From: Halorubrum aquaticum
GTDB taxonomy: Archaea; Halobacteriota; Halobacteria; Halobacteriales; Haloferacaceae
Direction of reading: 5' to 3'
DNA: 64,000 nucleotides
Assembly (NCBI RefSeq): GCF_900113615.1
Contig: NZ_FOPZ01000005.1
Coordinates: 1 to 64,000, forward strand
A model generated the notes under the pieces. That model was not told the origin of the DNA and ran no database searches. It was given only the letters and a program-made list of their open reading frames with translations. Of the stretch, positions 40,314 through 45,618 are shown in pieces. The position numbers were made by a program, and so were the translations under genes. Numbering within the stretch: the first letter of the stretch is position 1; the number at the start of each line of letters is the position of its first letter.

Positions 40314-40395
40314 GCCAGGATGGCCGAGTGGTAAGGCGCACGCCTGGAAAGCGTGTTCCCTTCCGGGATCGGGGGTTCAAATCCCTCTCCTGGCG
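40314..40395 (+). tRNA. tRNA-Ser (GGA)
   Basis: A complete class II tRNA. The 7-bp acceptor stem GCCAGGA/TCCTGGC (40314-40320 with 40388-40394) is followed by discriminator G40395. The anticodon stem CACGC/GCGTG encloses the loop CTGGAAA with anticodon GGA at 40346-40348. A long variable arm (TCCCTTCCGGGA hairpin) and the T-arm with GGTTCAAATCC follow. Serine identity rests on the GGA anticodon, the long variable arm and the G discriminator. CCA is not encoded. A short T-run follows at 40397-40400 and may end transcription. Confidence 0.97.
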
Positions 40396-40604
40396 CTTTT
40401 GCTGTCGCAATAACGAACGAGGAGCAGAGCGACGAGTGAGTTCCGCGACGACGAAAAGCACCACCGGATTCGAACCAGGGAGTGGATCGAGTGAAACGAC
40501 CGTGGTTCGCGTCTCTCGACGTTTCCTTCGCCGAGCGACGCCGATGGGGTTTCAATGGACCTACATAACCTTCATATGTATGGGTAGTGTTGACACGGGT
40601 GACG

Positions 40605-40811: not shown

Positions 40812-43706
40812 CTACTCGTCGAGGATCGCCGCGACCTCGCTCAGCCCCGCTTCCGGGTCGTCCGTGACCGCGTGCCGGAGCGCCTCGCCGATCGCCGACC
40901 GATCGCGATACCACACCTCCGTCGGCGGATCCAGGACCCCGTTCTCGGCCATGAACCGGATCGCCGGTGCGTACGGTTCGTACGGCGACGCGGCGGCGTC
41001 CAGCGAGAACGGGTCGCCGTTCATCGTGGGGAGCTGGCCGTTCTCGACGAGCAACGAGCCGACGGCCGACGACCTGAACCCCCTGGCGACCGCGAGCGCC
41101 TCGCCGAGCAGTTCCGTGTTGGGGTTGACGACGACGTACTGGCCGTACAGGGCCGTCCGCGATCCCACCGCCCCCGTGGGCATCGGCATCACGCCGAGGG
41201 CCTCGGAGTCGATCCGGTCCTGACGGCCGACCGCCACGGAGAGCGGGAGCAGGGCGGCGACAGCGCCCCCGTCGAGGAACCGTGTCATGGTCTCGCCGAA
41301 CCCGAACTCGAGCACCGCCTCGGAGGACGTCCGTTCGACCGGCGGGTCCGCTCGATCCCCACCGAGGGCGAGGTCGTGGAGGACGTTCGCCGCCCGGACA
41401 CCCGGGGTGTCCGCGATCGTCACCTCGGCGTCGTTCGCCGGTGCCGTCTCCGTGGTCTCGTAGTAGGACCCGCCGAACCCGGCCAACACGCCCGTGAACG
41501 TCGACGGGAACCGCGACGGCCGGCCGCTCCAGACGAACCCGGCGTCCCGCCGGACGGTGGCGACCATCCGCGACCAGTCGGCCCAGGTCGGCGGCTCGGT
41601 CATCCATCCCTCGTCGTCGAACCCGGCCTCCCGGAACCGCGGCCGCCGGTAGACGACCGCCTGTGGCATGAACGAGTACGGCAGCGCGTGGACCGCGCCG
41701 TCTCCGGGGTGACGTGCCGCGGTGTCGAGCGCGGGGAAGGTCCCGTCCAGCACCTCCCCGATCCGGTGGCGGTTCGCGTGTCGGGAGAGCGGCTCGGTCG
41801 CCCCCGCGGAAAAGAGCCTCCCGAGCTCCCAGCCGTTGACGACGAACACGTCCGGTTTCGGGTCCCCAGCGTCGACGCGATCGACGAACTCCTCGAGCCG
41901 TCCGTCGCCGGCGGAGTTCGACCGGACCTCCACGTCGACCGCGTCGGGAACGTCCGAGTCGGCGATCGCCTCCGGAAGCCCCTCCAGCCACTGGTAGTAC
42001 CGGACGTCCACGGTGACGGTCCCTCCCGTGACCTCGGCGTCGGCGTCCCCCTCATCGGGGCCCACGAGGTCGTCGTCGACGTCGCCGACCGCGACCGCTC
42101 CCTTCATCCCGACCGCCTCGTGGGGGACACAGAGGTAGTTGAAGACGTCCTCGCCCGCGTCCTCGAAGGTGTGCTCGAAGGTGTACCCCGCCTCGTTCAC
42201 CGTCTCGCCGTTGTCGAACGTCTCGTCGGTGGCGACCACGTTGTGCGCGCCGCCCCGGCCGGTCCACTCCCACACCACGGTCGTCCCGGGGTCGATCAGG
42301 ACCGCGGCCGGGGCGAACCGGAGCCCGTTCTCGCCCGCGCCGACCTCGACGACGACCACGTCCCGCCCGCGGTAATCGTACGTCCCGTCGTAGTTCTCGA
42401 CGCCGTCCAGCCACCCGTCGTACGGGTCGGCCGGGGAACCGGTTCCGCCGTCGGATCCGGAACCCCCGGTCGAGGCCGTCCCACCGCTCGGGGTCGCGTC
42501 GATCTGACCGTTCCGCTCCATCGCGACGAGACCGCCCAAGCCGACGCCGGCGAGCGCGAACGCGCCGACGCCGTATTTGAGGAACGACCGTCTGGAGCCG
42601 CCGGCGTCATCCGCGTCGCCGGCTTCGCTGCCTCCGGGCGTCCCGTCGCCGGACGGATCGCCACCCTTCCCGGACGTGTCGGCGGCAGCCGCCTCGTCGG
42701 CCGTGGCGGCCGCCGTTCCCGCCGCGGCCGCCCCGCCGGTCGTCCTCCCGTCGTCCTCCGTCCCGTCGTCTCCCGCCCCGGCGTCGTCGTCCTCAGTCGC
42801 GGCCCCGTCGTCTCCGGGTTCCTCGGGCGTCGGCGCGACGGTCGCGGCGAGCGCGTCCGCCTCGCGGTCCCCCGTGTCGACCGTCGGAACGGCGTCGAGG
42901 AGGTCCCGACCCAGCGGGTACGTCGTCGCGTACCGGTCCGCCGGGTCGCTCTCGGTCGCGCGGCGGATCGGCCGCACGGCACCCTCCGGGAGGTCCGCCG
43001 AGAGTCCGTCGACGTCGATCCCGCCGCGGATCGCGGCGGCCAGCGCCGCCGGGTCGTCGGCGTCGACGTTCGGGAACGGCGACCCGTCTCCGAGCGCCGC
43101 GGCGGCGAGCGCGCCGATCCGATAGACGTCGGTCCGCTTCGAGGCGTGGTCGCCCTCGAGCTGTTCGGGCGCGGTGTAGGGCGTCGTCGGGGGGTCCTCG
43201 ACGAGCCGGCTGAGCCCCCAGTCGTCGACGACCGCGACGGGTCCGTCGGCGTCGACGCGGAAGGAGAGACAGTCGGGGTGGAGCGCGAGGTGACACGGCG
43301 TGGAGCCGTACCGGGAGTAGGTACGGAGGACCTCACACACGTCGAAGAGCAGCTCGGCCCGCGTCCGCGGGTCACACGCCCGCGCGGTCTCGAGGGTGGT
43401 TCCGGTCGCCCACGCCTCGAGCTCGTCGGGGACGTACTCGACGGCGACCCAGGGCCGCGGGTCGGTCCCCCAGTCGCGCAGTCCGCGGACGGTCCGGCGC
43501 TCGTCGACGGTGGCCCACTGGCGGGCGAGCGCGTCGAACCGGTCGAACCGGTCGCTCGGAACCTTCCCGGTCGGCGTCCTGATCGCGACGGGATTCCCCT
43601 CCTCGTCCGTCCCATGGTACGTCGTCCACCGCGGCGTCCTCCCGACGCGATCGCCGACCGACCACGTTCCGTTTCGGCCCTCGACGGGCCCCTCGAACCC
43701 ATCCAT
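40812..43706 (-). CDS. Pseudokinase - Tat/TM - cupredoxin - solute-binding fusion protein
   Basis: A 964-residue chimeric protein. (1) Residues 15-275: Ser/Thr kinase-like fold, with the beta-3 lysine replaced (VAIR, R43), the HRD loop reading HLALHPDCL (139-147), DWG at 162-164 and TAPEQ at 178-182, so catalytically doubtful. (2) 280-370: acidic low-complexity linker. (3) 371-396: SRRSFLKYGVGAFALAGVGL, a twin-arginine motif plus hydrophobic helix. (4) 425-545: halocyanin-like cupredoxin with copper ligands H488, C526, H529 and M534. (5) 563-960: family 1 ABC-type solute-binding domain. The predicted topology is kinase inside, copper and binding domains outside. No permease or ATPase genes adjoin it. 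Function not known; a copper/redox- or ligand-sensing membrane receptor is the best inference. A TATA box 28 nt upstream fixes the start. Confidence 0.88.
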   Translation of the reverse strand: MDGFEGPVEGRNGTWSVGDRVGRTPRWTTYHGTDEEGNPVAIRTPTGKVPSDRFDRFDALARQWATVDERRTVRGLRDWGTDPRPWVAVEYVPDELEAWATGTTLETARACDPRTRAELLFDVCEVLRTYSRYGSTPCHLALHPDCLSFRVDADGPVAVVDDWGLSRLVEDPPTTPYTAPEQLEGDHASKRTDVYRIGALAAAALGDGSPFPNVDADDPAALAAAIRGGIDVDGLSADLPEGAVRPIRRATESDPADRYATTYPLGRDLLDAVPTVDTGDREADALAATVAPTPEEPGDDGAATEDDDAGAGDDGTEDDGRTTGGAAAAGTAAATADEAAAADTSGKGGDPSGDGTPGGSEAGDADDAGGSRRSFLKYGVGAFALAGVGLGGLVAMERNGQIDATPSGGTASTGGSGSDGGTGSPADPYDGWLDGVENYDGTYDYRGRDVVVVEVGAGENGLRFAPAAVLIDPGTTVVWEWTGRGGAHNVVATDETFDNGETVNEAGYTFEHTFEDAGEDVFNYLCVPHEAVGMKGAVAVGDVDDDLVGPDEGDADAEVTGGTVTVDVRYYQWLEGLPEAIADSDVPDAVDVEVRSNSAGDGRLEEFVDRVDAGDPKPDVFVVNGWELGRLFSAGATEPLSRHANRHRIGEVLDGTFPALDTAARHPGDGAVHALPYSFMPQAVVYRRPRFREAGFDDEGWMTEPPTWADWSRMVATVRRDAGFVWSGRPSRFPSTFTGVLAGFGGSYYETTETAPANDAEVTIADTPGVRAANVLHDLALGGDRADPPVERTSSEAVLEFGFGETMTRFLDGGAVAALLPLSVAVGRQDRIDSEALGVMPMPTGAVGSRTALYGQYVVVNPNTELLGEALAVARGFRSSAVGSLLVENGQLPTMNGDPFSLDAAASPYEPYAPAIRFMAENGVLDPPTEVWYRDRSAIGEALRHAVTDDPEAGLSEVAAILDE

Positions 43707-43730
43707 ACGCCGTCGTTTTCGGTGCCCCCT

Positions 43731-43737
43731 AATAACG
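43731..43737 (-). promoter_or_regulatory. TATA box of the fusion gene
   Basis: GTTATTA on the minus strand is centred 28 nt before the ATG at 43706, indicating a leaderless transcript. Confidence 0.6.
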
Positions 43738-43956: not shown

Positions 43957-45618
43957 ATGAGCCAGCGAATGCAGCAGGGTCAGCCGATGATCATCATGGG
44001 CGACGACGCCCAGCGCGTCAAGGACAAGGACGCACAGGAGTACAACATCTCCGCGGCGCGCGGCGTCGCCGAGTCCGTACGCTCGACGCTCGGACCGAAG
44101 GGAATGGACAAGATGCTCGTCGACTCGATGGGAGACGTCACCATCACGAACGACGGCGTCACCATCCTGCAGACGATGGACATCGACAACCCGACCGCCG
44201 AGATGATCGTCGAGGTCGCCGAGACCCAGGAGGACGAGGCCGGCGACGGAACGACGAGCGCGGTCGCCATCGCGGGCGAACTGTTGAAGAACGCCGAGGA
44301 CCTCCTCGAGCAGGACATCCACCCCACCGCGGTGATCAAGGGGTTCAACCTCGCGAGCGAGCACGCCCGCGAGCAGGTCGACGAGATCGCCACGGCCGTC
44401 GACGCCGACGACACGGAGACGCTGAAGAACGTCGCCGAGACGTCGATGACGGGCAAGGGCGCGGAGCTCGAGAAGGACGTCCTCGCGGACCTCGTCGTCC
44501 GCGCGATCCAGGAGGTCACCGTCGAGGCCGAGGACGGCTCGCACGTCGTCGACCTCCAGAACCTGAACATCGAGACGCGGACCGGGCGCTCGGCCGGCGA
44601 GTCCCGGCTGCTCTCCGGCGCGGTCGTCGACAAGGACCCGGTCCACGACGACATGCCCACCGACTTCGAGGAGGCGAACGTCCTGCTCCTCAACGAGGCC
44701 ATCGAGGTCGAGGAGGCGGACGTCGACACCTCGGTCAACGTCGACTCGCCCGACCAGCTCCAGAAGTTCCTCGACCAGGAGGAGGAACAGCTCCGCGAGA
44801 AGGTCGACCGGATCGTCGAGAGCGGCGCGGACGTCGTCTTCTGTCAGAAGGGGATCGACGACCTCGCCCAGCACTACCTCGCGAAGGAGGGAATCCTCGC
44901 GGTCCGTCGGACGAAGAAGTCCGACATGAAGTTCCTGAAGAACGTCCTCGACACGACGATCGTCACCGACATCGACTCGCTGTCGGCAGACGACGTCGCG
45001 GTCGGCTCGGTCACTCGTGACGCCGAGGAGGAACTGTTCTACGTCGAGGGCGAGAACCCCCACGGCGCGACGCTCCTGCTTTACGGCTCGACCGAGCACG
45101 TCGTCGACGAGCTCGAGCGCGGGATCAACGACGCGATCGACGTGGTCGCGACGACCGTCTCCGACGGTCGGACGCTCCCCGGCGGCGGCGCGATCGAGGT
45201 CGAACTCGCGAGTCGGCTCCGTGACTTCGCCGACTCCGTCTCCGGACGCGAGCAGCTCGCCGTCGAGGCGTTCGCCGACTCCCTCGAGTTGATCCCCCGC
45301 GTCCTCGCCGAGAACGCCGGGCTCGACTCCATCGACCTCCTGGTCGACCTCCGTGCGGCCCACGAGTCGGGCGACGAGAACGCCGGCCTCAACGTCTTCA
45401 CCGGCGAGGTCGAGGACACCTTCGAGGCGGGCGTCGTCGAGACGGCCCACGCCAAGGAGCAGGCGATCTCCTCGGCCGCCGAGGCCGCGAACCTCGTGCT
45501 CAAGATCGACGACATCATCGCGGCCGGCGACCTCTCCACCTCCGGCGGCGACGACGAGGGCGGCGCCGGCGGCATGGGAGGCATGGGCGGCATGGGTGGC
45601 ATGGGCGGCGCGATGTGA
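43957..45618 (+). CDS. Thermosome subunit (group II chaperonin)
   Basis: The 553-residue protein is a CCT/thermosome subunit that folds proteins in an ATP-driven double ring. The equatorial domain shows VRSTLGPKGMDKMLVDSMGD (42-60), NDGVTIL and the catalytic GDGTT (96-100). The apical domain follows, and the last equatorial part has VSDGRTLPGGGAIEVELA. The C-terminus is a series of GGM repeats (GGMGGMGGMGG) that line the cavity floor in this family. Haloarchaea carry two or three paralogues; which one this is cannot be told. The ATG at 43957 is set by the TATA box. Confidence 0.96.
   Translation: MSQRMQQGQPMIIMGDDAQRVKDKDAQEYNISAARGVAESVRSTLGPKGMDKMLVDSMGDVTITNDGVTILQTMDIDNPTAEMIVEVAETQEDEAGDGTTSAVAIAGELLKNAEDLLEQDIHPTAVIKGFNLASEHAREQVDEIATAVDADDTETLKNVAETSMTGKGAELEKDVLADLVVRAIQEVTVEAEDGSHVVDLQNLNIETRTGRSAGESRLLSGAVVDKDPVHDDMPTDFEEANVLLLNEAIEVEEADVDTSVNVDSPDQLQKFLDQEEEQLREKVDRIVESGADVVFCQKGIDDLAQHYLAKEGILAVRRTKKSDMKFLKNVLDTTIVTDIDSLSADDVAVGSVTRDAEEELFYVEGENPHGATLLLYGSTEHVVDELERGINDAIDVVATTVSDGRTLPGGGAIEVELASRLRDFADSVSGREQLAVEAFADSLELIPRVLAENAGLDSIDLLVDLRAAHESGDENAGLNVFTGEVEDTFEAGVVETAHAKEQAISSAAEAANLVLKIDDIIAAGDLSTSGGDDEGGAGGMGGMGGMGGMGGAM

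Follow-up and report, generated by a model that had tools for sequence, protein, structure and literature searches.

A haloarchaeal protein family joining a predicted pseudokinase, a putative internal Tat anchor and a solute-binding domain, with an optional blue-copper module

Background

The solute-binding protein (SBP) GlnH has been reported to act through GlnX on the kinase PknG in mycobacteria and corynebacteria, and kinase and SBP domains also occur together in single polypeptides of Mycobacterium (MSMEG_1200) and Streptomyces (PMC6069109). Protein kinases are likewise part of the archaeal FtsZl1 cassette, which was first described in Halorhabdus utahensis (Huta_2050-2056) and for which a role in membrane remodelling was proposed (Makarova and Koonin 2010, PMC2875224). 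An internal twin-arginine translocation (Tat) signal is known in the Streptomyces Rieske protein (PMC13186574, PMC7317946). Here we describe a gene of the haloarchaeon Halorubrum aquaticum whose product joins a kinase-fold domain, an internal Tat anchor, a blue-copper domain and an SBP domain. The gene lies in the first 64,000 nucleotides of contig NZ_FOPZ01000005.1, and this whole stretch of DNA is referred to as the window.

Little is known about the inputs of archaeal Ser/Thr-kinase-like proteins or about their partners, and this family provides a compact, syntenic and genetically approachable case. It offers a contrast between a constrained, apparently dead kinase on the inside and a faster-evolving, seemingly repurposed SBP on the outside, together with natural variants that carry or lack the blue-copper domain. 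Among openly licensed papers, we found none on this protein or on any halocyanin-kinase fusion.

Results and discussion

Domain architecture and conserved core

The gene and the domains of its product are arranged as follows.

40812..43706, minus strand: whole gene for the pseudokinase-Tat-halocyanin-SBP protein of 964 residues (ATG at 43706, stop at 40812-40814)
42882..43706, minus strand: kinase-fold domain, predicted inactive, residues 1-275 (profile, fold and motif evidence)
42519..42596, minus strand: SRRSFLK, an internal Tat motif, with a weakly hydrophobic helix after it, residues 371-396 (SRR at the domain junction in all readable members)
42072..42422, minus strand: cupredoxin of halocyanin/plastocyanin type, an optional module, residues 429-545 (TIGR03102; plastocyanin alignment)
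40815..42029, minus strand: family 1 solute-binding domain with the trehalose/maltose-binding-protein fold and its transporter motifs lost, residues 560-964 (profile, fold and alignment)

The core unit of this family is kinase-Tat-SBP, and the copper domain is optional. Three Halorubrum orthologues carry the copper domain (the window genome, H. rubrum and Halorubrum sp. 48-1-W), all of them full-length and syntenic, and in five of the eight readable Halorubrum orthologues the order is kinase-Tat-SBP with a short linker replacing the copper domain. A further genome, G133, encodes the SBP without a copper domain, and a stretch of 20 N breaks into its kinase. This is an assembly gap, so a pseudogene reading was dropped; the eight readable orthologues are those of the other Halorubrum genomes. 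Full-length kinase-Tat-SBP proteins without a copper domain (808 and 820 residues; 42-45% identity) were also found in two of the 125 Natrialbaceae genomes searched.

An original prediction made from the DNA letters had described one uninterrupted 964-codon frame, with no strand stated, and with its own TATA box, joining a degenerate kinase-like domain, a twin-arginine/hydrophobic segment, a cupredoxin with the ligands H488, C526, H529 and M534 and a family 1 solute-binding domain, with the kinase inside, the ectodomain outside and no ABC (ATP-binding cassette) permease or ATPase adjacent. The frame, the promoter element, each of the four parts with the exact ligand positions and the absence of transporter genes were all recovered in the analyses below; the kinase and SBP folds were predicted well, and the sequence features fit the proposed topology. 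Splitting of the homologues was looked for, and none of the orthologues has a stop that divides it; the break in G133 is the assembly gap. As a fixed design, the four-part order held for kinase-Tat-SBP and failed for the copper domain. The prediction missed that the kinase belongs to an FtsZl1-linked group of pseudokinases and that the motifs of the parental transporter SBPs have been lost.

A conserved kinase domain without its catalytic residues

Residues 1-275 gave a PknB profile match of 5e-45; the NCBIfam PknB-type profile matched at 2.8e-5 and Pfam Pkinase (PF00069) at 0.005, below its cut-off. The AlphaFold2 model of this domain has a predicted local distance difference test (pLDDT) value of 88.5, and the best Foldseek matches in the PDB are Stk1/PknB (probability 1.00, TM-score by target ~0.7). 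The kinase and the C-terminal part were modelled separately because a joint full-length alignment put SBP rows onto the kinase.

In the Halorubrum members checked, arginine replaces the lysine of the VAIK motif (VAIR or IAIR). The aspartate of HRD is replaced by alanine in the pattern HLA(L/I)HPDCL (HLALHPDCL in the window protein; HLGIHPDCL in G107), and the following asparagine is also gone. The DFG aspartate is retained (DDWG or GDWG, that is, DWG), as is APE, and several haloarchaeal relatives keep VALK or VAVK and HLDLKPxN. With the catalytic lysine and aspartate lost, the domain is predicted to be an inactive pseudokinase. Despite this loss, it is the best-conserved part of the protein and is under strong purifying selection, with a codon-model omega of 0.058, NG86 ratios of nonsynonymous to synonymous rates (dN/dS) of 0.11-0.25 and 6% of codons near neutral. 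The codon model used throughout is our own implementation, applied to seven sequences with recombination ignored.

A solute-binding domain without its transporter motifs

Scanned alone, the C-terminal part matches SBP_bac_1 (PF01547) at 1.7e-9 and 38.5 bits, above the gathering cut-off of 26 bits; a scan of the whole protein did not list this match. The closest PDB sequence is the trehalose/maltose-binding protein of Thermococcus litoralis (1eu8; 2.5e-53), and the fold matches best MalE3 of T. maritima and 1eu8. The model of the C-terminal part has a pLDDT of 84.9, with poorer values in the copper part (50-85).

At 32 positions, 13 haloarchaeal transporter SBPs are at least 90% identical, and none of the 11 fusion members keeps the conserved residue. 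The lost motifs are GWTIPFI, FPD, YxGLxCC, RNWPY and GGW, and the losses include the aspartate of the D-G-W motif and the tryptophans of RNWPY and GGW. Two lost positions (the MDVAW aspartate and RNWPY) align with what we take to be sugar contacts of 1eu8, a correspondence read from the alignment. Constraint is also lower, with NG86 dN/dS of 0.37-0.73 for the fusion SBP compared with 0.08-0.27 for a transporter SBP in four of the same species. The codon model gives the fusion SBP an omega of 0.183 against 0.058 for the kinase, an approximately threefold faster evolution, with 25% of SBP codons near neutral. Positive selection or an arms race acting on the ectodomain was considered in view of pairwise dN/dS values up to 0.73, but was rejected (M1a against M2a, p = 1). 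Relaxed constraint is preferred because the codon model gives no support for sites above 1. Taken with the lost transporter motifs, this suggests that the SBP has been repurposed.

The putative internal Tat anchor

The Tat motif is internal, starting at residue 371, rather than N-terminal, and the Tat/helix segment (371-396) has no lipobox cysteine. In all readable SBP fusions, SRR lies at the junction and the helix hydropathy is 1.3-1.7, in contrast to related pseudokinases with carboxypeptidase-regulatory-like (CPD) repeats, which have no SRR and a hydropathy of 2.4-3.0. The automatic read-out misplaced the SRR motif in G107, where the true junction is SRRSFLKYG, and the hydropathy peak in G133. 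The Tat pathway exports folded proteins, and because of this a switch between a helix without SRR and a Tat anchor is consistent with an SBP or copper domain being exported in folded form. The type of anchor would then follow the exported cargo, a plain helix for CPD repeats and Tat for the SBP. One helix, positively charged on the N-terminal side, would place the kinase inside and the ectodomain outside.

Kinship with FtsZl1-linked pseudokinases

A second pseudokinase of the window genome (45-53% identity) combines a strongly hydrophobic helix with CPD repeats, and the CPD and SBP pseudokinases together form one clade (support 100/98). This second pseudokinase is encoded in a cluster on another contig of the genome.

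L110 2847-15684 (G000 contig C9, 22000-38000): FtsZl1/Tubulin_2 cluster of the window's own genome, with a Tubulin_2 protein of 1056 residues (GGGSGSG)

This cluster also encodes a membrane protein with a weak AAA_16 match and a CPD protein, and on the opposite strand a DUF6517 protein and a pyrroloquinoline quinone (PQQ)-propeller protein with a kinase-like tail. It matches the FtsZl1 cassette with protein kinases (PMC2875224). In four genomes, the CPD pseudokinase gene adjoins those of Tubulin_2, the membrane protein and a CPD protein; a truncated copy occurs in G105. In three genomes, the CPD pseudokinase was found as short pieces only and the kinase-SBP gene is intact.

G105 contig C1, 1489763-1490053: CPD pseudokinase fragment
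G116 contig C12, 53887-54138: CPD pseudokinase fragment
G126 contig C20, 125648-125722: CPD pseudokinase fragment

Seven other FtsZl1 loci were inspected; all contain the core genes and lack a pseudokinase, which argues that the pseudokinase is an accessory part of the FtsZl1 system. The kinase-SBP gene lies within the FtsZl1 cluster in the Natrialbaceae genome G369, and outside it in Halorubrum (at the thermosome locus) and in the other Natrialbaceae genome, G346. An FtsZl1 orthologue occurs in all nine Halorubrum carriers of the fusion compared with four of the 43 non-carriers (Fisher 2e-7). As a separate observation, a second, interrupted Tubulin_2-like gene, ~48% identical to the first over its N-terminal part, is present in the window genome (G000 C31 3928-5610) and in H. 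rubrum (G126 C11 300169-301839).

A copper domain with halocyanin relatives

The cupredoxin matches the halocyanin family TIGR03102 at 1.1e-37 (128.6 bits; curated cut-off 93.8), and alignment with plastocyanin places its copper ligands at the following codons.

42243..42245, minus strand: copper ligand H488
42129..42131, minus strand: copper ligand C526
42120..42122, minus strand: copper ligand H529
42105..42107, minus strand: copper ligand M534

This putative His-Cys-His-Met type 1 set is intact in all three copper-domain copies, and the fused domain has a dN/dS of 0.24-0.48. Standalone halocyanins of the same species group share 80-85% identity with the fused domains. At the DNA level, the H. 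rubrum domain comes closest to that species' own halocyanin (90%), and the domains of the window genome and sp. 48-1-W pair with each other (98/91). A single capture followed by vertical descent was rejected, as grouping the three carriers in one clade fails the approximately unbiased (AU) test for the kinase (p 7e-6), the SBP (0.008) and the thermosome (0.008). The tree of the copper domain does not separate one capture from two (p = 0.19). The module apparently derives from a halocyanin gene by one or more copying events, after which it was regained, exchanged or lost.

Gene status and locus

The 964-codon frame is unbroken from ATG to stop, but its length is weak evidence of a gene, because the DNA here is 69% G+C and an overlapping plus-strand frame is longer (1382 codons). 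Gene status follows instead from orthologues at one syntenic site in nine Halorubrum genomes (among them H. cibi, H. halodurans, H. rubrum, Halorubrum sp. 48-1-W and 'Halobellus captivus'), from dN/dS below 1 and from a conserved TTATTA before the ATG. The gene is flanked by a RidA-type gene and by a thermosome gene, from which it is divergent in all nine Halorubrum genomes.

43730..43735, minus strand: TTATTA, a TATA-like element centred ~26 nucleotides before the ATG and kept in eight orthologues
43957..45618, plus strand: thermosome subunit, the divergent neighbour, which is context and not part of the protein (open reading frame and conserved neighbourhood)

The element was found in all eight upstream regions compared, and its spacing from the ATG fits a leaderless transcript. 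Inspection of the conserved neighbours recognised no ABC permease or ATPase adjoining any of the nine syntenic copies. In three fusion-less Halorubrum relatives (L141, L145 and L146), the gap between the RidA-type and thermosome genes is ~1.1-1.2 kb with no kinase or SBP match inside, and these are natural empty sites.

Several other features were seen at these loci. A tRNA-Ser(GGA) gene lies at 40314-40396 of the window (plus strand), ~400 bases past the 3' end of the fusion gene and before the RidA-type gene. The kinase-SBP gene of Halorubrum sp. 48-1-W has a tandem duplication in its promoter-proximal sequence (upstream of 5502 in L103), with two copies of ATTAGGGTCCGCCGAAAACGTCGACAC ahead of the ATG. 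In Halobellus captivus, what looks like a TnpB-type transposon protein gene lies between the thermosome and kinase-SBP genes (L107 3690-5003), and TnpB-like genes also occur near the fusion in the Natrialbaceae genomes G346 (L176 426-1706 and 4199-5572) and G369 (L175 9112-10329).

Proposed function and alternatives

The domain order and its conservation, the loss of the catalytic lysine and aspartate, the retained Tat motif, the lost transporter motifs and the FtsZl1-linked kinship are observed. We favour, at slightly below even odds (roughly 45%), a membrane-spanning pseudokinase that serves as a receptor or anchor with exchangeable ectodomains and perhaps feeds a tubulin-like membrane system. 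Such a protein would comprise a cytoplasmic, inactive kinase-fold domain, a single signal-anchor helix inserted by Tat and an external SBP, with a halocyanin copper domain copied into the ectodomain in some lineages. The helix would remain uncleaved and be oriented with its N-terminus in and its C-terminus out. A ligand of the SBP or a partner at the surface may change the state of the pseudokinase, which would act by docking rather than by phosphorylation, its most plausible targets being components of the FtsZl1 (Tubulin_2) membrane system. The copper domain may modulate this response or add a binding or redox surface, and the core function would not need it. The receptor version has precedent because of GlnH-GlnX-PknG sensing and the actinobacterial kinase-SBP polypeptides (PMC6069109).

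Several results weigh against this interpretation. The faster and partly near-neutral evolution of the SBP could mean that it has no specific ligand, and a possible cleavage site after the helix (..GLVA-ME..) would, if cut, uncouple inside from outside. The fusion gene and the FtsZl1 cluster of the window genome lie on different contigs, and G346 has the kinase-SBP gene with no FtsZl1 orthologue. The co-occurrence with FtsZl1 was dropped as independent proof, as the Halorubrum carriers form one clade (90/83 in the thermosome tree) and provide two independent pairs only. A wider claim, that these proteins are an archaeal receptor class coupling a tubulin-like GTPase machine to a solute outside the cell and, in some species, to a copper/redox domain, with ectodomains swapped between lineages (CPD repeats, SBP, or SBP plus blue copper) and an export route that switches between plain helix and Tat with each cargo, would be the first of its kind, and we think it unlikely as a whole.

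The same pseudokinase could alternatively be a purely structural adaptor that ties a tubulin-like or membrane machine to the envelope, its SBP, CPD and copper domains being swappable stalk or adhesion modules that pass no ligand signal. The variety of ectodomains on one type of pseudokinase, the loss of transporter motifs under relaxed constraint and the dispensable copper domain all suit such an anchor. The SBP, however, keeps a full two-lobe fold (predicted) with purifying selection on ~75% of its codons, seemingly beyond what a passive spacer needs, and we regard this alternative as doubtful although worth serious attention. Proteolytic maturation, in which signal peptidase cuts past the helix and the kinase and ectodomain act apart, would draw on the weak LVA-M type site just after the helix. 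Leucine at -3 generally makes a poor site, the lipobox cysteine is absent and the FtsZl1-linked paralogues carry a plain transmembrane helix, and cleavage of this kind appears improbable.

Extracellular redox sensing, which the original prediction had offered as a function, would centre the protein on its blue-copper domain as a sensor or electron-transfer protein. The four ligands are intact in all three copies and the fused domain has dN/dS below 1, but redox sensing is not supported as the core function because the copper domain is absent from five of the eight readable Halorubrum orthologues and from both Natrialbaceae orthologues, which keep the kinase, Tat and SBP parts. The copper carriers, moreover, are not a clade, and standalone halocyanins look like a recent source of the domain; there is little to expect from this explanation. 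Membership of the SBP in a sugar-transporter family would also allow a membrane-tethered binding protein for an unlinked ABC transporter, with the kinase as a mere tether. Against this stand the lack of a recognised permease beside any of the nine syntenic loci, the change of all conserved transporter-SBP positions, the far stronger constraint on a transporter SBP in the same species and the kinase being the best-conserved part of the protein, and we consider such a role very improbable.

Comparison with known systems

Each part of this protein is known, and single polypeptides with kinase and SBP domains have already been reported in actinobacteria (PMC6069109). New, to our knowledge, are the archaeal occurrence, the consistent catalytic loss, the Tat-type anchor, an inserted halocyanin domain that is repeatedly present or absent and the kinship with FtsZl1-linked pseudokinases. 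Membrane remodelling was predicted in 2010 as the role of the Tubulin_2/FtsZl1 system (PMC2875224). If the link to it is true, the family would help to show which inputs the system responds to.

The nearest comparisons differ in instructive ways. GlnH-GlnX-PknG resembles the present case in that an outside SBP is proposed to control an inside Ser/Thr kinase (PMC6069109), but it consists of three separate proteins with an active kinase and an amino-acid SBP. The actinobacterial polypeptides, which are known by description, likewise hold a Ser/Thr-kinase-type domain and an SBP in one chain (PMC6069109), whereas the protein described here is archaeal and has a degenerate kinase, an internal Tat anchor, an SBP of trehalose/maltose type and optional copper. 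1eu8 and MalE3 share the fold and family of the fusion SBP, which is without the aspartate of the MDVAW motif and without RNWPY. The copper domain belongs with the halocyanin/plastocyanin family (TIGR03102, PF00127) by domain and ligand set and has standalone Halorubrum halocyanins as its nearest relatives (80-85%); unlike these, it sits between a kinase-Tat module and an SBP. The Streptomyces Rieske protein also uses an internal Tat-type signal to export a C-terminal domain (PMC13186574, PMC7317946), but there the signal comes after Sec-inserted helices and here after a folded cytoplasmic domain. As for the FtsZl1 cassettes (PMC2875224), the closest relatives of the fusion kinase are pseudokinases encoded beside a Tubulin_2 protein, and the Halorubrum kinase-SBP gene departs from them in having its own site beside the thermosome gene and an SBP in place of CPD repeats.

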